This document shows positions 6,510 to 63,648 of a stretch of DNA of 64,000 nt, one piece after another (position 1 is the stretch's first letter; each line of letters begins with the position of its first letter). Source of the DNA: Candidatus Lindowbacteria bacterium RIFCSPLOWO2_12_FULL_62_27 (lineage in GTDB: Bacteria > Lindowbacteria > 2-12-FULL-62-27); NCBI GenBank assembly GCA_001784175.1, contig MFPR01000001.1, forward strand, positions 186,001 through 250,000, in the 5' to 3' direction. The notes beneath the pieces are model-generated. The model was not told where the DNA came from. It saw only the letters and a program-made list of their open reading frames with translations, and ran no database searches. The position numbers and the translations under genes were made by a program.

Positions 6510-7409
6510 TCAAGCGCGCGGGTGCGATTTTTCGTATACCGCCTTCAGGCGCTGTTTGGTCACGTGCGTGTAGCGCTGGGTGGTCGAGAGCGACTGGTGG
6601 CCGAGGAATTCCTGGACGGCGCGCAGGTCGCATCCGGCGTCGAGCATGTGCGTGGCGAAGGTGTGTCGGATCATGTGCGGGTGAACATGGCGGTTGAGGG
6701 CGATGCGGCGGACGGCGCCATCCAAAATCATGCGCACTGCCCGCGCGGTCAGCCGGCGGCCCGCCGCGTTCAGCCAGACGGCGCGCCCGTCCCGGACCGC
6801 CCCGTCTTTTCGGGCTGACAGGTAGTCCCGGAGCGCCGACGCCGCAGGATCGCCGAAGGGCACGATCCGCTCCTTGTTGCCCTTCCCAAGGACCCGGATC
6901 CACTGCGCGTCCAGATTCAGATCATCGAGGTTCAGTCCCGTCAGTTCCGAAACCCGGATGCCCGTCGCGTACAGCATTTCGAAGAGCGCGCGATTGCGAA
7001 GCGCCAGGCACTGATCCTCCGTACCGCGAGACCCGCCGGAGCGTTCAATCAGTTTTGTGATTTCCTCCAGGAACAGAAATTTCGGAAGTCGCCGGGAGGA
7101 TTGCCGGGGCGCCTGAAACCCGGCGGCGGGCGATGACGGGAGCCGGCGGCTGCGCACCAGGTACCGGAAAAAACTCTTGATCGCCGCCACCTTCCGCCGC
7201 ACCGACGCCGGCGCCAGCTTGAGGTCGGCCAGGCGGTAGAGATAGGCCCGCACGTCCGCTGGCACGGCCGATTTCCATCCGGCGCGTCCGCGGCCGTCCA
7301 GAAACACCCGAAACTGCCACAGGTCCCGCCGGTAGGCCTCCAGCGTGTGGGCCGACGCCCCGCGCTCAATCTTCAGCCACGCGGCGAACCGCTCGATCTC
7401 CTCCTCCAC
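6510..7409 (-). CDS. xerC: Tyrosine recombinase XerC/XerD
   Basis: Site-specific recombinase that resolves chromosome dimers at dif. 299 residues from GTG 7409. An N-terminal SAM-like core-binding domain occupies 1-95. The catalytic domain carries the full set: R152 (ATGIRVSEL), K176 (GKGNKER), H245/R248 (HMIRHTF), H271 (LGHQSL) and nucleophile Y280 (RYTHV). Last gene of the dprA-smg-topA-trmFO-xerC run. A palindromic octamer array lies between trmFO and this start. XerC versus XerD cannot be settled by eye; the trmFO neighbourhood favours XerC. Confidence 0.92.
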   Translation of the reverse strand: MEEEIERFAAWLKIERGASAHTLEAYRRDLWQFRVFLDGRGRAGWKSAVPADVRAYLYRLADLKLAPASVRRKVAAIKSFFRYLVRSRRLPSSPAAGFQAPRQSSRRLPKFLFLEEITKLIERSGGSRGTEDQCLALRNRALFEMLYATGIRVSELTGLNLDDLNLDAQWIRVLGKGNKERIVPFGDPAASALRDYLSARKDGAVRDGRAVWLNAAGRRLTARAVRMILDGAVRRIALNRHVHPHMIRHTFATHMLDAGCDLRAVQEFLGHQSLSTTQRYTHVTKQRLKAVYEKSHPRA

Positions 7410-7428: not shown

Positions 7429-7496
7429 TGATATCATGATATCATGATATCATGATAGCTATCATGATATCATGATATCACTATATCATGATGTCA
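7429..7496. repeat. Palindromic TGATATCA octamer array, copy 1
   Basis: Three TGATATCA octamers (7429-7452), a central TGATAGCTATCA 12-mer (7453-7464), two more octamers (7465-7480), then two degenerate units ending in TGATGTCA (7489-7496). Positions 7437-7480 form a perfect 44-bp palindrome centred on AGCT, identical to 61387-61430. The array supplies the last codons and stop of trmFO and ends 19 nt before the xerC GTG. Function unknown; not a CRISPR and not a terminator (no U-tract). Confidence 0.95.
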
Positions 7497-8844
7497 CTTC
7501 GGCGGAGGCCGCGAGGGACCGGGGGTCCTGCGCGGCCAGGTATTGCGCGAGCGACCGAAGGGCGCGGGCCGACCGGGCCTCGCGCGGGGCGCGGGGGTCG
7601 CCGCCGAGGATGCCGAAGTTGATGTTCTGGGGCTGAAAGTTCAGGGCACGGGCGGGGTCGCGGACCGTGCGGCAGAGTGCGCCGATCGCCGTGTCGCAGG
7701 GAAACGGCGCCGGGGGCAGGCCCGCCGAAATCCGGGCGATCTGCACCGCGGCCGCAAAGCCTGTCGCGCAGGATTCGATGTATCCCTCGACGCCGCATAT
7801 CTGGCCGGCGAAAAAGATTCGCGGGTCGGTCATCATCTGCAGCGACGCGTTCAGACAGCTTGGCGCGTGAATGTACCGGTTCATGTGGATGCTCCCGAGT
7901 TGCGCGAACGCGGCGCGTTCGAGGGCCGGAATCATTCGCAGGACTCGCCGCTGCTCCGGGTAGGTCAGACAGGTTTGAAATCCGACCATCCCCAGAATCG
8001 TGCCCTCCCGGTTGTCCTTTCGAAGCTGAACCACCGCGTGAATTCCGCTTCCCGCGCTTCCGTTGCGATCCGCCGGGCCCGGCCGCAGGCCCACCGGTTT
8101 CATGGGACCATGCGCAAGCGTCTCCACGCCGCGGCGCGCCATTTCCTCGACCGGAAGACACCCTTCGAAAAAACGCAGTTTCGCTTCGCCCGGAAGGTGC
8201 GGCTGGACGGTTTCAGCCGTCCGCAGGGCTTCCCAAAATGCCGTGTATTCCTGCTCGCTCATCGGACAATTGAAATAATCCTCTCCCTCTCCCTTCCCAT
8301 AGCGCGACGCCCAGAACCCGCGGGAAAAATCGATCGAGTCGGACATGATCCTCGGCGCGATCGCGTCAAAGAAGAAACAGGCCTTGGAACCGATCCTCCG
8401 CTGAATCGCATCGAAGAGGCGGTCCGACGTAAGAGGCCCGGTCGCGATCAGGACCGGTCCCGCGCCCTCCTCCGGGATCGCATCTATTTCTCCTCGCCGA
8501 ACCGTGATGTTGGGATGGGACAGGATCGCGCGGGTTACGCCCTCCGAAAAATGCTCGCGGTCGACCGCAAACGCGGCGCCGGCCGCCACGCGGCATTCCT
8601 GCGCGACCCGCAGAATAAGCGAGCCGGCCGCCCGGAGTTCCGCCTTGAGAAGACCCGGCCCGGTCGACAACTCATCCGAACGGAACGAATTCGAACACAC
8701 GAGTTCCGCGCAGCGGTCCGTGCGGTGCGCCGGCGTGTTGGACACCGGACGCATTTCCCAAGCCACCACCTGCACGCCGCGCTCAGCCAGCTGCCAGGCC
8801 GCTTCGGAACCCGCAAGGCCGAGTCCAATGACCGTCACGCTCAT
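7486..8844 (-). CDS. trmFO: Folate/FAD-dependent tRNA (uracil-54-C5)-methyltransferase TrmFO
   Basis: Makes ribothymidine at tRNA position 54 using methylenetetrahydrofolate and FADH2. About 452 residues from ATG 8844 (TTG 8856 also in frame). The N-terminal dinucleotide-binding motif GLGLAGSEAAWQLAERG is followed by RTDRCAELVCSNSF; late motifs are FAGQICGVEGYIESCATG and PQNINFGILGG. It starts 15 nt after the topA stop. Its final Ser codon and TGA are embedded in the octamer array, so the repeat has probably overwritten the native 3' end. Confidence 0.95.
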   Translation of the reverse strand: MSVTVIGLGLAGSEAAWQLAERGVQVVAWEMRPVSNTPAHRTDRCAELVCSNSFRSDELSTGPGLLKAELRAAGSLILRVAQECRVAAGAAFAVDREHFSEGVTRAILSHPNITVRRGEIDAIPEEGAGPVLIATGPLTSDRLFDAIQRRIGSKACFFFDAIAPRIMSDSIDFSRGFWASRYGKGEGEDYFNCPMSEQEYTAFWEALRTAETVQPHLPGEAKLRFFEGCLPVEEMARRGVETLAHGPMKPVGLRPGPADRNGSAGSGIHAVVQLRKDNREGTILGMVGFQTCLTYPEQRRVLRMIPALERAAFAQLGSIHMNRYIHAPSCLNASLQMMTDPRIFFAGQICGVEGYIESCATGFAAAVQIARISAGLPPAPFPCDTAIGALCRTVRDPARALNFQPQNINFGILGGDPRAPREARSARALRSLAQYLAAQDPRSLAASAEVTS

Positions 8845-8859
8845 CGAACCGTTCAACCC

Positions 8860-42626: not shown

Positions 42627-44317
42627 CGTACCCTGAATGTCCATTCCTTTCGGCTCACATTTCCGATCCGGTCCGCCACCGTCACGGCCAGCCGGTGCGG
42701 CCCACGCCCGACGCGCGTCAGAATCACCCGCACCCAACCGCGGTCTGCATCATAATACCACTCCTCATGCGCCCTGCCATCCACCTCCACACCTCCGGTG
42801 TCGGCCATACCGGAGCCGCGGTCGCTCACGACCACATGAATCTCGTCGTCACGGGACCACCGCCCGGCCGCCGGAAAGGAAACCCGCGGCGCAACCGAGT
42901 CGTCGGAGAGAATGTAAAAGGCCGTTCGATCGATTTTTGCGGACACGGCGCCGGCGGCCGTGTCCGCAAGAGCGCCGACGAATGACCATTTTTCGGGCTG
43001 CCCGTTCAAGGACGCCCGTCGATAAACAGCTAATTTCCCCGTTGGAATCTGCATCGTGACTGGCACGCGGAAGCGGAGAACGGCCGGCGAAGCCAGCGGA
43101 ACACCTGTCGGCTCGAGCAAACACGCGGAGACAACGGGCAGAACGGATTCGTGAGGCGGCGTGAAATCGTTCCCGGAAGATCCGGCCCACACGCTCACGG
43201 CTTCCGAGGAATAGAACATCGAGGGCGCAAGCAGACATTCGACGGCGCCGTCCGGAGACGCCAGTTGACGCGTTTCCCCTTCGGAGGGCCGGAACATTAA
43301 CCCCTCCCCCCTTGTGGGGGAGGCCGGGTGGGGGGTACCTATTCCTATCTCTGTCTCTGTTGCATTCCCGCTGTTGTCCTCCGCCCGGATCCACAGAACG
43401 TGCGTGTCCCCGCGCACGCGCGAAACATCGAGCGCCGGAGACTCGGCCGCCGATGGCGCGCGCGGCCGCGGCAATCCCGTGAACAGCCGGAATCGGTAAC
43501 GGCCGCCGGCGCCGGAGGAACGCAAATCGTAAATCAAACCGACCCGCTTGTTCTCCTGCGACGCGTAACTCAAACGATCAAACAGAATTGTTTTCGTGTC
43601 CTTGTGATCAAGCGCGTAAATGATTTTCCTCGGACTCAGGTGATAGGCCGGAGCATATTCCGACGTGTCGGTCGCCACAAGATCGATCCAATACCTGCCG
43701 GGAAGATCTTCGGCGCCTTCAAAGACGCGGGTAAGAATAACGGACGACACGATCGGCGCCGTCCTGTCCGTGGGCGCCGGCAAAAATTCAAACGGATGGA
43801 TCGGCGTCTCTTCGTCCCGGCGCAACTCAAAATGCAGGTGCGGCAGGCCCGCGCCGCTTTCGCCGCTGTATCCGATCAGTTCGCCCTTCCTCACCGGCGC
43901 AAGTTCCCCCGGCGCTACGGCGGCGTCGAGCTTGTCGCGAAATTTCATTCCGCGACGCCGGTGCGCCACCCACGTCTGGATCGCGCCCGCGAACCGGTCC
44001 AGATGCGCGTAGACCGACCGGCGGCCCTCCGGATGCCTGAGATAAATCGCCTTGCCGAATCCCGTCAGGCTGTCCGCCACGCGGTAGACTTCTCCGTCGG
44101 CCACCGCATACACCGGCCGGCCGACTTCGCCGTTCGTCGAAAAATCGATCCCTGTGTGAAAATGCCCCTCGCGGTATTCGCCGAACGTCCCGGTCACAGG
44201 CGCCTCTTTGCCCAACGGCCACGCGTAATCGCCCCGGACACCGGAGCAGAAGACACCGGAGCAGAAGACAGAATACAGAAGACAGAATACAGAAGAACCC
44301 AGCAGACGCAGACGCAG
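42623..44317 (-). CDS. M23-family peptidoglycan peptidase-like protein (CTG start proposed)
   Basis: Predicted periplasmic LytM-like endopeptidase, 564 residues. The conserved opening YAWPLGKEAPVTGTFGEYR lies upstream of TTG 44215, so translation must begin earlier. There is no ATG/GTG/TTG in frame up to the pilR-like stop, and CTG 44317, 2 nt after that TAA, gives a signal peptide (LRLRLLGSSVFCLLYSVF). Zinc ligands: HFHTGIDFS and HLHFELR. The C-terminal half has Ig-like beta domains. A tandem repeat encodes the signal peptide and a 35-bp repeat sits in frame near residue 310-330. Confidence 0.85.
   Translation of the reverse strand: MRLRLLGSSVFCLLYSVFCSGVFCSGVRGDYAWPLGKEAPVTGTFGEYREGHFHTGIDFSTNGEVGRPVYAVADGEVYRVADSLTGFGKAIYLRHPEGRRSVYAHLDRFAGAIQTWVAHRRRGMKFRDKLDAAVAPGELAPVRKGELIGYSGESGAGLPHLHFELRRDEETPIHPFEFLPAPTDRTAPIVSSVILTRVFEGAEDLPGRYWIDLVATDTSEYAPAYHLSPRKIIYALDHKDTKTILFDRLSYASQENKRVGLIYDLRSSGAGGRYRFRLFTGLPRPRAPSAAESPALDVSRVRGDTHVLWIRAEDNSGNATETEIGIGTPHPASPTRGEGLMFRPSEGETRQLASPDGAVECLLAPSMFYSSEAVSVWAGSSGNDFTPPHESVLPVVSACLLEPTGVPLASPAVLRFRVPVTMQIPTGKLAVYRRASLNGQPEKWSFVGALADTAAGAVSAKIDRTAFYILSDDSVAPRVSFPAAGRWSRDDEIHVVVSDRGSGMADTGGVEVDGRAHEEWYYDADRGWVRVILTRVGRGPHRLAVTVADRIGNVSRKEWTFRVR
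43301..43335 (+). repeat. 35-bp G/C-rich palindromic repeat, copy B (inside M23 gene)
   Basis: CCCCTCCCCCCTTGTG start and GGGGGG end; 34 of 35 bases match the reverse complement of 11741-11775. Inside the M23 coding sequence, read in frame as TPHPASPTRGEG, it forms a Pro-rich linker between domains, so the insertion is tolerated. Confidence 0.9.
44238..44295. repeat. Tandem 15-bp and 14-bp direct repeats encoding a signal peptide
   Basis: Two perfect copies of ACACCGGAGCAGAAG (44238-44252, 44253-44267) followed by two perfect copies of ACAGAATACAGAAG (44268-44281, 44282-44295). On the minus strand they encode the hydrophobic core of the M23 signal peptide, including a repeated SVFCSG-like unit. 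Confidence 0.95.
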
Positions 44318-44319
44318 AT

Positions 44320-59389: not shown

Positions 59390-61360
59390 TCATTCGTACC
59401 GCAGCGCGTCGATCGGCTTGAGGGACGCCGCTTTTCTCGCGGGCCACAGGCCGAAGAGGACGCCGACGGCGACGGAGAATCCGAAGGCGAGGGCCACGGC
59501 CGACGGGGCAACGGCGGCGGTCCAGCCGGCCCAGTGGGATAGGCCGAGCGTGATGAGCCAGCCAAGCACAATACCGGAACAGCCGCCGACGATGCTGACC
59601 GCGACCGCTTCGATGAGGAATTGCCACAAAATATCTTTCGGGCGCGCGCCGATGGCCTTCCGGAGGCCGATTTCGCGCGTTCGTTCCGTGACCGAGACCA
59701 GCATGATGTTCATGATGCCGATGCCGCCGACGAGGAGCGAGATGGCGGCGATGGAGGCGAGGAGCGCGGACAACGTGCGGCTGGTTTCGGTAAGCGTTTC
59801 CTGGAACTGGACCAGATTGCGTATCTGGAAACTGTCGTACCGGGCGGGCGGCAGGCGGTGGCGGCGGATGACGGTTTGCCGCACCGATTCCTCCACGCCC
59901 GCCATGTGCTCCGGCCCCTCGACTTCAATGTCGATCTGGTCGACATATTCTTTTCCGAAGAGCCGCTTCATCGCGGTGCCGAGCGGCACCACGACCAGGT
60001 CGTCCTCATCGCGCCAGGTCGTGGCGCCTTTTTCGGGCAGGATCCCGATCACCTGAAAATTCACGCGGTTGATTTTGATCATCTCCCCGATCGGATTGAC
60101 CGGGCCGAAAATTTCCCGGACGATCGTCATGCCGACGACGGCGACCCTCATCCGTGACTGTTCCTCGGCCGACGTGAAGAACCGGCCGACAACCGGCCGG
60201 GACGCGCGCATGTCGGCGTAGTCGGGGAGCGTTCCCGACACCGTCGTATTCCAGTTCGCGGCGCCGTACACAAGCTGGCCCCGGCCGGACGCGGTCGGCG
60301 ACACCCGGCGGACGCGCGCAAGTGTGCGGACGGCCTCCGCGTCCTCCAGCGTGAAACGGGTCACCGTGCCGGCCTCGAGCATCACGCCATGCGTGCGGAG
60401 CGACCCGGGCCGAAGGACGAGGAGGTTCGACCCCATCGAGGCCAGACGCTCTTCGATCGATTTCTTCGCGCCGTGCCCCAGCGCCAGCATGGCGATCACC
60501 GCCGCGACGCCAATCAGAATGCCCAGAACCGAAAGACCCGTTCGGACCTTGTTGGCCGACAGCGCGCGCACGGCCTGCCGCAGGTACTCGCGGGCGTCGC
60601 GCCAAAAAAGTTTCCATCGACTGCCGGCCACCGCCGGCGGCTCGGCCGCCTCGGCCGGGATGGGCGCAACGGATGCCCGGGCGCCGGGATGCGCCGCGTC
60701 GTCCACGATCCGGCCGTCGCGCATGCGGATGATCCGCCGGGCCTGTTTCGCCACGTCCTCTTCGTGCGTTACCAGAACCACTGTGATGCCGCGGTCATTC
60801 AATTTCCGGAAGATGTCCAAGATTTCGACCTGGCTCCGGGAATCCAGGTTGCCAGTCGGCTCATCCGCGAGAATCATGCGCGGGCGGTTCATCAACGCCC
60901 GCGCGATCGCCACCCGCTGCTGCTGCCCGCCGGACATCTGGTTGGGCATGTGACCCGACCGCTCGGCAAGCCCGACATCGGCGAGCAATTCGCGCGGGCG
61001 GGAGGCAGGATCGACGCCGTTGGCGCAATAGATCAGCGGGAGAGCCGCGTTTTCGAGGGCGCTCATTCTCGGCAGGAGATTGAATTGCTGAAACACGAAT
61101 CCAAGCCAGCGCGACCGCAGCGTGGCCAGGTCCTGCTCCGCGAGCCGCGAAACCCGGCGGCCCATGAGTTCATACACGCCGTCGTCCGGCGTATCGAGAA
61201 GCCCCAGCACATGCAGAAGCGTTGACTTGCCGGACCCCGACGGCCCCATGATGGCCACCCACTCGCCCGGCTCGATCGCCAGGCTGACCCCGTCCAGCGC
61301 GCGGACGACCGTGTCGCCCATGACATAGGATTTGCGGAGATCAACGCAGCGGACGATCAT
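59390..61360 (-). CDS. macB: MacB-type ABC exporter (ATPase-permease fusion)
   Basis: 656 residues from ATG 61360. The N-terminal ATPase (1-230) has Walker A GPSGSGKST, signature MSGGQQQRVAIARAL and DEPTGNLD. After a linker come TM1 (about 275), a periplasmic MacB_PCD domain (300-520) and three TMs with TERTREIGLRKAIGARPKDI. It works with MacA and a TolC-type channel to expel lipophilic drugs, siderophores or lipopeptides. A palindromic array separates it from macA. Confidence 0.94.
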   Translation of the reverse strand: MIVRCVDLRKSYVMGDTVVRALDGVSLAIEPGEWVAIMGPSGSGKSTLLHVLGLLDTPDDGVYELMGRRVSRLAEQDLATLRSRWLGFVFQQFNLLPRMSALENAALPLIYCANGVDPASRPRELLADVGLAERSGHMPNQMSGGQQQRVAIARALMNRPRMILADEPTGNLDSRSQVEILDIFRKLNDRGITVVLVTHEEDVAKQARRIIRMRDGRIVDDAAHPGARASVAPIPAEAAEPPAVAGSRWKLFWRDAREYLRQAVRALSANKVRTGLSVLGILIGVAAVIAMLALGHGAKKSIEERLASMGSNLLVLRPGSLRTHGVMLEAGTVTRFTLEDAEAVRTLARVRRVSPTASGRGQLVYGAANWNTTVSGTLPDYADMRASRPVVGRFFTSAEEQSRMRVAVVGMTIVREIFGPVNPIGEMIKINRVNFQVIGILPEKGATTWRDEDDLVVVPLGTAMKRLFGKEYVDQIDIEVEGPEHMAGVEESVRQTVIRRHRLPPARYDSFQIRNLVQFQETLTETSRTLSALLASIAAISLLVGGIGIMNIMLVSVTERTREIGLRKAIGARPKDILWQFLIEAVAVSIVGGCSGIVLGWLITLGLSHWAGWTAAVAPSAVALAFGFSVAVGVLFGLWPARKAASLKPIDALRYE

Positions 61361-61382
61361 TCTGCTTCGCGGTCCCAAAGCC

Positions 61383-61434
61383 AAAGTGATATCATGATAT
61401 CATGATAGCTATCATGATATCATGATATCACTTT
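61383..61434. repeat. Palindromic TGATATCA octamer array, copy 2 (52-bp perfect palindrome)
   Basis: Two TGATATCA units (61387-61402), the 12-mer TGATAGCTATCA (61403-61414) and two further TGATATCA units (61415-61430), flanked by AAAG/CTTT. All 52 bases are perfectly self-complementary about 61408/61409. It touches the macA stop and lies 22 nt before the macB ATG. Confidence 0.97.
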
Positions 61435-62401
61435 ACTCCCGGCGGGAACTGCGGCGCTGGCCGAAGGGCGAGAACGGATTGGTCGGCGCCTGCGATGCGC
61501 GGTCCGGCAGGCGGGACCGTGCGACCAGGATTTCCTGGCCCTCCGCCAGACCCGAAACGATCTCGGTGCGCTTGCCGTCCGTCAATCCCGTGCTCACCGG
61601 CCGGCGGTCCGGGTCTCGGCCGCCCGGGGCCGGCAAAAGCACCCAGCGGTCGCCGTCGCGGTCGCGCACCGATTCGGCCGGCACGAGGAGGACGCCCGAT
61701 TTTGCCGCGACCTTGAACGTGACGTTGGCCGTCATGCCGCTGCGCATGAAGGGCGGGACGTCGCCGGGCAGGACGTCGACGGCGTAGACGGTGACGTTGT
61801 TGACCGTTTGGGCCTCGTACGCGATGTGATCGACCACGGCGGCGATGGAATGTTGGGGATAGGCGTCGAGGACGACCGATGCGGCCTGCCCGACCTGAAC
61901 GGCGCCGATGTCCGTTTCATCCACCTGCGCCTTGACGATCAGCCGGTCCGATAGAACCACGACGGGATCGGCCGACGTGACCGACTGGCCGGGTTCGACG
62001 CTGCGCGCGATGACGGCGCCGTCGATGGGCGAAACCAGCGGCGCCGGCTTGTACAGCTCGCTCCAGCGCGCGACCTCCTCCGGGCCCTTCATGCGGGCCG
62101 CGTCGAGCAGGGCGGCGCGCTCGGTCGAACTCATCCACGCGACGATCTGGCCCCTTCGGACGGACGCGCCCTCGCGCACGAGGATGTCCTCGATCCGGCC
62201 GCCGATCGGCGGTTTGACCTCCACCCGGTTCTGCGGCTCCACCCCGCCCGTCGTCAGCACGACCGTTTCGATGTCCCCGCGCCGCACGCGCACCGTGTCC
62301 CATTCGATTCCATCGGCCCGACGCCCGCCGCCGCGCCACCAGCCCCAGGCGCCGATGGCCAGCGCCACCACGACCAGCGCGATCATCCATTTGACCCTCA
62401 C
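61433..62401 (-). CDS. macA: MacA-like periplasmic adaptor (HlyD family)
   Basis: 322 residues from GTG 62401 (GTGA overlap with tolC). N-terminal TM anchor (MIALVVVALAIGAWGWW). A lipoyl/barrel-sandwich domain is split into GGVEPQNRVEVKPPIGGRIE and APLVSPIDGAVIARSVEPGQ with a short hairpin between. The beta-barrel TDIGAVQVGQAASVVLDAYP and the membrane-proximal domain follow. Docks MacB to the outer-membrane channel. The hairpin is short for the family. Confidence 0.92.
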   Translation of the reverse strand: MRVKWMIALVVVALAIGAWGWWRGGGRRADGIEWDTVRVRRGDIETVVLTTGGVEPQNRVEVKPPIGGRIEDILVREGASVRRGQIVAWMSSTERAALLDAARMKGPEEVARWSELYKPAPLVSPIDGAVIARSVEPGQSVTSADPVVVLSDRLIVKAQVDETDIGAVQVGQAASVVLDAYPQHSIAAVVDHIAYEAQTVNNVTVYAVDVLPGDVPPFMRSGMTANVTFKVAAKSGVLLVPAESVRDRDGDRWVLLPAPGGRDPDRRPVSTGLTDGKRTEIVSGLAEGQEILVARSRLPDRASQAPTNPFSPFGQRRSSRRE

Positions 62402-63648
62402 GGCTCCAGCTCCTTTCCTGTCGCGTTCAGCCACTCGGCCTCGGCTAGGACGGCGTCCCGGCGGGCCGCGAGCGCGGCCCGTTCCTGTGAAATGAGATCA
62501 TTTTCGATGATATCCCAATCCTGATACGTGAGCAAACCGCTCGCATACTGCGCCTGCGCGATTTCGGCCCGGACCCGCGCGGCTTCCAGAAACTCCTCGC
62601 GAACGGCGACGAACTCCGCCGCGTCGACGAAGCCGGCGTGCCGGTCCCGCAGATCCAGCGACGCGAAGTTCCGCGCCGACTCCTCCACAAACGCGAGCCG
62701 CTCCGCATCCGCGCGCGCCGACTCGACGTCGCGCCATTCCTTGCCGCCGGAAAAGAGCGGGAGCGACAGCGCCAGGCCGCCGGACCAGTCACCCGTGGTT
62801 CGTCGCGGCGGCCAGCGGCCGTCCGAGCGTTTGGCGGACCCGGACAGCGACAGGGTCGGATAGAAATTCCGGCGCTCGATGGTGACGCCCAGTTCCCCGG
62901 CCCGCCGGTCCGCAACTGATTTTCGCACGGCGGGCGTACGATCGGCGAGCGCCGCAAAGTCCGGTTCCTCCGGCGGCACGCCGGCTTCAAGCCCGCCCAC
63001 CGCGCGAACCTCGCCGTCGTCCCGCCCGCCCAGCGCGCGGCGCAGTTCCTGCTGCGCGACCCGCACGGCGCGCCGCGCCTGCCGGACATCGAAATCGGCC
63101 TCGTGGGCCTGAGCCTTTGCGCGCAAAAATGACCCCTTATGCTCGCGGCCGGCGTCAAACCTCGCGCGGACCAGATCGACGTTCTGCTTGCGGCGGTCCG
63201 CGATTTTTTCCGCCAGCGTCAAAAATTCCTGCGCGTGCAAAAGGCGGGCGAAGGCCGACCGAAGATCGATCTGCACATCGGCCGACGTTGACGCGAGGTC
63301 CGCCCGCGCCGCGTCGAGCGCGGCCTTCGCCTTCGCTACTTCCGGCTGGTCGGTCAGGCCGGGGAACAGGCGCTGGCTGGCGGAAAGGCTGTAGGCATAC
63401 TGATCGCCGGAGGCGGACGAATGAGACCGCGAGTAATCGACGCCTCCATCCAGATCCGGCCAGTACTCGGCCCGCCCGGACCCGACCGCCGCCGCGGCCG
63501 ATCGAACCGACGCTTCGGCCGCCCGAAGGTCCGGATGCCGCGCGCGGGCTTCGCGCGCGCATTGCTCCCAACTCACATCGCCGGCCCAAGCCACCATCGC
63601 CCCGAATGCGACGGCAGCGCCGACCGCAAACGTCCTTGCGATCTTCAT
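62398..63648 (-). CDS. tolC: TolC-family outer-membrane efflux protein
   Basis: 416 residues from ATG 63648: signal peptide (FAVGAAVAFGAMVAWA) and two OEP repeats of long helices. The first half has HPDLRAAEASVRSAAAAVGSGRAEYWP and the second has NFYPTLSLSGSAKRSDG and YASGLLTYQDWDIIENDLI. First gene of the tolC-macA-macB operon, completing a tripartite exporter. GTG 63666 is an alternative start. Confidence 0.92.
   Translation of the reverse strand: MKIARTFAVGAAVAFGAMVAWAGDVSWEQCAREARARHPDLRAAEASVRSAAAAVGSGRAEYWPDLDGGVDYSRSHSSASGDQYAYSLSASQRLFPGLTDQPEVAKAKAALDAARADLASTSADVQIDLRSAFARLLHAQEFLTLAEKIADRRKQNVDLVRARFDAGREHKGSFLRAKAQAHEADFDVRQARRAVRVAQQELRRALGGRDDGEVRAVGGLEAGVPPEEPDFAALADRTPAVRKSVADRRAGELGVTIERRNFYPTLSLSGSAKRSDGRWPPRRTTGDWSGGLALSLPLFSGGKEWRDVESARADAERLAFVEESARNFASLDLRDRHAGFVDAAEFVAVREEFLEAARVRAEIAQAQYASGLLTYQDWDIIENDLISQERAALAARRDAVLAEAEWLNATGKELEP

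Follow-up and report, generated by a model that had tools for sequence, protein, structure and literature searches.

What is the array of palindromic octamers that lies between trmFO and xerC in this genome? The sequence-only reading had offered three explanations, namely, an intercistronic RNA hairpin, a site bound cooperatively by a dimeric protein, and a REP-like mobile palindrome. The window, i.e., the whole stretch of 64,000 nt that was analysed, corresponds to G000:C1:186001-250000 of a draft genome of 4.39 Mb in 44 unordered contigs. It contains nine exact TGATATCA octamers, five at 7429-7480 and four at 61387-61430, far above the count in shuffled sequences (mean 0.26, maximum 2). The octamers are self-complementary and stand in tandem around one TGATAGCTATCA per copy, and both TGATAGCTATCA copies were confirmed in the window. 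The first element (7429-7480; neither element is assigned a strand) consists of three octamers, the centre and two octamers, and the second of two octamers on either side of the centre. The centre of the first copy (7453-7464), TGAT-AGCT-ATCA, represents an octamer with a 4-bp insertion. The 44-bp palindrome at 7437-7480 is identical to that at 61387-61430, and the second copy, together with its AAAG and CTTT edges, forms a 52-bp perfect palindrome (61383-61434).

At the first copy, a degenerate octamer pair, CTATATCA TGATGTCA (7481-7496, no strand assigned), carries the array into the upstream cistron trmFO (7486-8856, minus strand; NCBIfam TrmFO above cut-off), the TGA stop of which (7488-7486, minus strand) lies in the first octamer of the pair. 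The ORF of the downstream cistron xerC (6510-7409, minus strand; NCBIfam XerC, 335.9 bits with a cut-off of 335.15) starts at 7409, 19 nt off the array. These observations are in agreement with the sequence-only reading, which had described octamers flanking a single TGATAGCTATCA, a 44-bp palindrome with an identical distant copy, a stop codon provided to trmFO, and an end 19 nt before xerC. The second copy is preceded by a gene for an RND-type periplasmic adaptor (61433-62434, minus strand; NCBIfam RND_mfp above cut-off) with its TAA stop in the element edge, and is followed by a MacB-like ABC transporter gene (59390-61384, minus strand; best NCBIfam match MacB, 522 bits, below the cut-off of 966), which is given as the longest ORF with an uncertain start codon. 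The window also contains short head-to-tail repeats at 44237-44318, GACACCGGAGCAGAA followed by CAGAAGACAGAATA units, that are unrelated to the octamers.

A pattern search of the whole genome with the 28-bp core revealed 15 copies (14 exact and one with one mismatch), whereas the reversed control pattern gave no match; hence, the element is not confined to the two copies in the window. The copies follow the order (TGATATCA)2-3, TGAT-AGCT-ATCA, (TGATATCA)2-3 and have AAAG- and CTTT-like edges, and exact octamers are in register in all 15 as tandem 8-bp palindromic boxes. The outer octamers, which lie outside the 28-bp search pattern, showed no mismatch at 240 positions, whereas 22 of 120 edge positions deviated from AAAG/CTTT (Fisher P ~8e-12). 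This difference suggests that the octamers may be under constraint; recent spread of copies or conversion between them could also contribute to it. With one mismatch allowed, the core was found in none of the 40 comparison genomes. A member of the same family (G001, Candidatus Lindowbacteria, JAHFCY01) nevertheless harbors at least 26 arrays, in which the octamers and the AAAG/CTTT edges are the same and the centre is another one. By hand count, most centres in G001 are TGAT-ATAT-ATCA or a near variant, CCAC separates the octamers in two copies, and four copies are without insertion; within each carrying genome, the centre is largely uniform. An assembly artefact was rejected as unlikely because the copies have unique flanks and this separately assembled genome also contains numerous such arrays, and the suspicion that only two copies exist and that relatives lack them did not hold. 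Among the matches listed from a literature search on the octamer string, none was related.

All 15 copies of the own genome are placed between co-directional genes as judged from ORF calls and inspection, the gene upstream of the glyA copy being inferred from relatives. With a co-directional background of 73% in the window, such placement is expected by chance in ~0.9% of cases, the background being drawn from the window and the fetched loci. The upstream gene ends in the array TGA at nine junctions (frames read by eye), and the element carries stops in all three frames. The neighbours above NCBIfam cut-offs include gltX, glpK, moaC, sixA, lpxB, pdxA, rsmA, rseP, proS, trmFO, xerC, and the L28 gene, while bioF and macB are best matches below cut-off; no common function was evident from these assignments. 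The co-directional placement would suit a hairpin transcribed between cistrons, with an effect on mRNA stability or read-through that needs no DNA-binding protein, and the RNA form does fold perfectly (-33.1 kcal/mol vs -9.3 for shuffles). However, such folding is expected of any palindrome, the arms are unequal in 9 of the 15 copies, and the primary sequence is octameric in two genera rather than varying by paired changes. Moreover, the linkage of the array to a ribbon-helix-helix (RHH) gene, described below, recurs in other bacteria. Any transcript of the element would thus fold as the sequence-only reading had supposed, but the octameric primary sequence and the link to the RHH gene are left unexplained, and a function as an RNA hairpin is very unlikely.

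The gene in question lies directly downstream of one copy outside the window (G000:C30) and encodes a 65-aa RHH protein. Its counterpart in G001 is 65% identical and is likewise immediately preceded by an array, and the genes beyond it differ; the two orphan proteins are 64-65 aa long and have different residues at position 7 (Q in one, G in the other). Hence, a gene for a predicted DNA-binding protein, as the sequence-only reading had proposed to look for, was found immediately behind an array in two genera, the arrangement expected of an antitoxin gene and its operator. The Pfam FitA-like RHH model matched the G001 protein at 28.9 bits, above the cut-off of 27, and the own protein at 22.6 bits, below it. 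By this profile comparison, the linked protein is a predicted relative of FitA/VapB antitoxins. An AlphaFold2 model of the RHH protein built from two sequences had a mean pLDDT of 61.6. The own RHH gene is flanked by a 320-aa ORF and a convergent spermidine-synthase-like ORF, and no toxin gene was recognised among the neighbouring ORFs in the own genome or in G001. A second FitA-like RHH gene of G001 (L268, G001:C59) carries TGCTATCA-TAAA-TGCTATCA just upstream of its start.

It is likely that the element is the operator array of this small orphan FitA/VapB-type RHH protein, dispersed to intercistronic sites. The array would thereby probably be the predicted binding site of the linked protein, spread round the chromosome. 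Among the three original explanations, cooperative binding by a dimeric protein has the best support, as the linked RHH gene has been found and the binding is predicted from it. From the sequences, we infer DNA binding, cooperativity, autoregulation, and effects at the dispersed sites. RHH dimers may line up on adjacent 8-bp palindromes and bind cooperatively, like MetJ on met boxes, and the copy in front of the RHH gene (G000:C30) presumably autoregulates that gene. The array would have spread to 14 further intercistronic sites, where the bound protein could change promoter activity or the read-through that reaches the cistron downstream. By consensus match, promoter-like pairs, ATGATA-N18-TATCAT, are present in the array on both strands (six matches in the region vs 0.1 in shuffles), and it is the central 4-bp insertion that brings their spacing to 18 bp.

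The operator reading is supported by the RHH gene, which immediately follows an array in each of the two carrying genera, and by the third family member (G002, 81% complete), in which neither the core nor this linked RHH was found. Against it stand the score of the own RHH protein under the Pfam cut-off and the lack of a Pfam match for an RHH-like protein of Clostridia discussed below. A classical repressor regulon would often bind at divergent promoters, whereas most of the dispersed sites are not at such promoters, and their neighbours are without evident common function. The uniformity of the centre within a genome also counts against it, as recent spread or conversion could mimic constraint.

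Comparison of orthologous junctions within the family showed that gltX-glpK, rseP-proS, pdxA-rsmA, oxidoreductase-lpxB, and adaptor-macB are filled in the own genome and element-free in G001 and/or G002. Four places, moaC-bioF, after the L28 gene, after a cyclase gene, and before glyA, carry the element in the own genome as well as in G001. In G002, the orthologous junctions contain no element. As orthologous junctions are occupied in one genome and empty in another, copies have been gained or lost. An origin from phages or plasmids was rejected, since no exact 28-mer was found in viral contigs and no relative of the RHH protein in viral contigs or plasmids.

Presence and absence of an extragenic palindrome at the same junction in different genera is also what a non-autonomous REP-like palindrome would show if a RAYT-type (Y1) transposase moved it in trans. 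Its stops in all frames would make such a palindrome tolerable at gene ends, and the RHH link would be secondary. Y1 transposases are indeed encoded by all three family genomes, with eight Y1/RAYT-type matches in the own genome (e.g., C41:78434 and C1:98904) and six and ten in the two other members, and action of a RAYT protein in trans on the element is possible. However, the coordinates place none of the 15 copies close to any of the eight Y1 loci of the own genome, and the flanks read at two of these eight (L261 and L264) contained no octamers; within this scope, the linked RAYT-type transposase that the sequence-only reading had envisaged was not found, and a diverged copy may lie beside one of the other six loci. 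The octamer was likewise absent from the one Y1 flank read from each of G002 (L262) and G001 (L263). Furthermore, the element lacks a GTAG or CGTC end tag and has AAAG/CTTT-like ends in its 15 copies, the copy number is just 15, and G002 has ten Y1 matches yet no core copy. The extragenic and variable occurrence of a REP-like palindrome is therefore matched, but its tags are absent, no linked transposase was found by coordinates or at the two own loci read, and the RHH link would be left unexplained; this origin is considered unlikely.

The distribution of similar arrays was evaluated by a DNA pattern scan of GTDB genomes, which returned at least 105 stretches in at least ~54 genomes (hand count). 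Among the matches listed, an RHH or RHH-like gene starts within 130 nt downstream of the array in ~15 of the 54 genomes. A profile search of array-linked genes gave Pfam matches above cut-off at five loci (L059, L063, L096, L139, and L117), RHH model matches below cut-off at four (L070, L103, L116, and L141), a weak HicB match alone at L079, and no match at L055. Some of the array-linked RHH genes are followed by ORFs that resemble PIN toxins by eye. Among ten FitA-like genes, six carried TG[AC]TA[GT]CA within 130 nt upstream, with ~0.3 expected; the model P of 1.7e-8 is optimistic because the pattern was chosen after examples had been seen. A search with RHH_1 (PF01402) in nine array genomes yielded no fetched match with an octamer array directly upstream, and one Blackburnbacteria match had an array ~540 nt downstream.

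Several rumen Clostridia harbor dispersed arrays and one RHH-like gene with an array in front of it. A search with this RHH-like protein recovered a single copy from six of the seven genomes that have dispersed arrays, with octamers just upstream in all six, and none from six other genomes searched. The protein has no Pfam match, and the arrays of these Clostridia are intergenic but without orientation bias. Magasanikbacteria and Blackburnbacteria MAGs (L068, L071, L080, L119, and L146; L056, L084, L128, and L137) contain several palindromes at dispersed positions that share the half-site and are centred on TTTAAA or TTCGAA, and no RHH gene was found directly behind them. At three further loci (L073, L081, and L133), similar ATATCATGATATCATGATAT palindromes lie directly upstream of ORFs for ArsR-type or other winged-helix regulators; therefore, not every such palindrome is an RHH site.

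One rumen Clostridia MAG (L295:1834-2430) has its RHH-like gene followed by ~8 TTTGATATCATGATATCAAA-type boxes, several of them 63-69 bp apart, a cluster resembling a centromere-like array. Such a cluster would fit a MatP-like role, in which the RHH protein marks the chromosome via limited dispersed sites and effects on transcription are incidental. The 15 dispersed sites with one orphan RHH gene point in the same direction, as does a weak NCBIfam match of the own RHH protein to the segregation protein PrgO (20.5 bits, with a cut-off of 100). However, none of the genes next to the own RHH gene was recognised as ParA-like, and the draft of 44 unordered contigs gives no chromosome map for judging the clustering of sites. 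A primary role in chromosome organisation appears improbable as compared with the operator reading, in which the same dispersed sites would act on neighbouring cistrons.

The operators of RHH antitoxins are normally local to their own operon. We tentatively suggest, with some doubt, that orphan antitoxin-type RHH proteins of two or more unrelated lineages (the Lindowbacteria and the rumen Clostridia) may each have become the centre of a chromosome-wide system through a dispersed array of their own operator, acting as a regulatory network or as a chromosome organiser. If true, a dispersed operator with an orphan protein, found with different proteins in separate lineages, would illustrate how a selfish module's repressor can become a genome-wide regulator or organiser. 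The 65-aa protein and the 44-bp site form a compact, testable pair.

Four known systems resemble the array and its protein in part. Upstream of fitAB, heterodimers of FitA and FitB assemble on a stretch of 36 bp (PMC3920265). As in FitAB/VapBC, a FitA-related RHH protein is present here with TGATATCA-like octamers upstream of its own gene, and FitA-like genes elsewhere have TG[AC]TA[GT]CA upstream; unlike in these modules, no toxin partner was recognised, the C-terminus is basic, and the putative operator is dispersed at 14 further sites. MetJ is an RHH protein that acts on tandem 8-bp self-complementary met boxes. Tandem 8-bp self-complementary boxes and an RHH protein are found here as well, but the sequence is different, there is no MetJ match, and the sites lie between cistrons and not at biosynthetic promoters. 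REP palindromes carry a GTAG or CGTC tag (PMC3733652) and reach copy numbers above 100 (PMC2817692). The element shares with REP/BIME and RAYT systems extragenic palindromes at many places and RAYT-type genes in the genome, whereas it has no tag, 15 copies, and no linked transposase found, with an RHH gene linked instead. MatP has an RHH-type fold and a modest number of dispersed palindromic matS sites. It is the organiser of Ter (PMC12756933). Here, too, dispersed palindromic sites in modest number accompany an RHH-type protein, but the motif is different, the octamers are in tandem, and the sites are tightly placed between cistrons.
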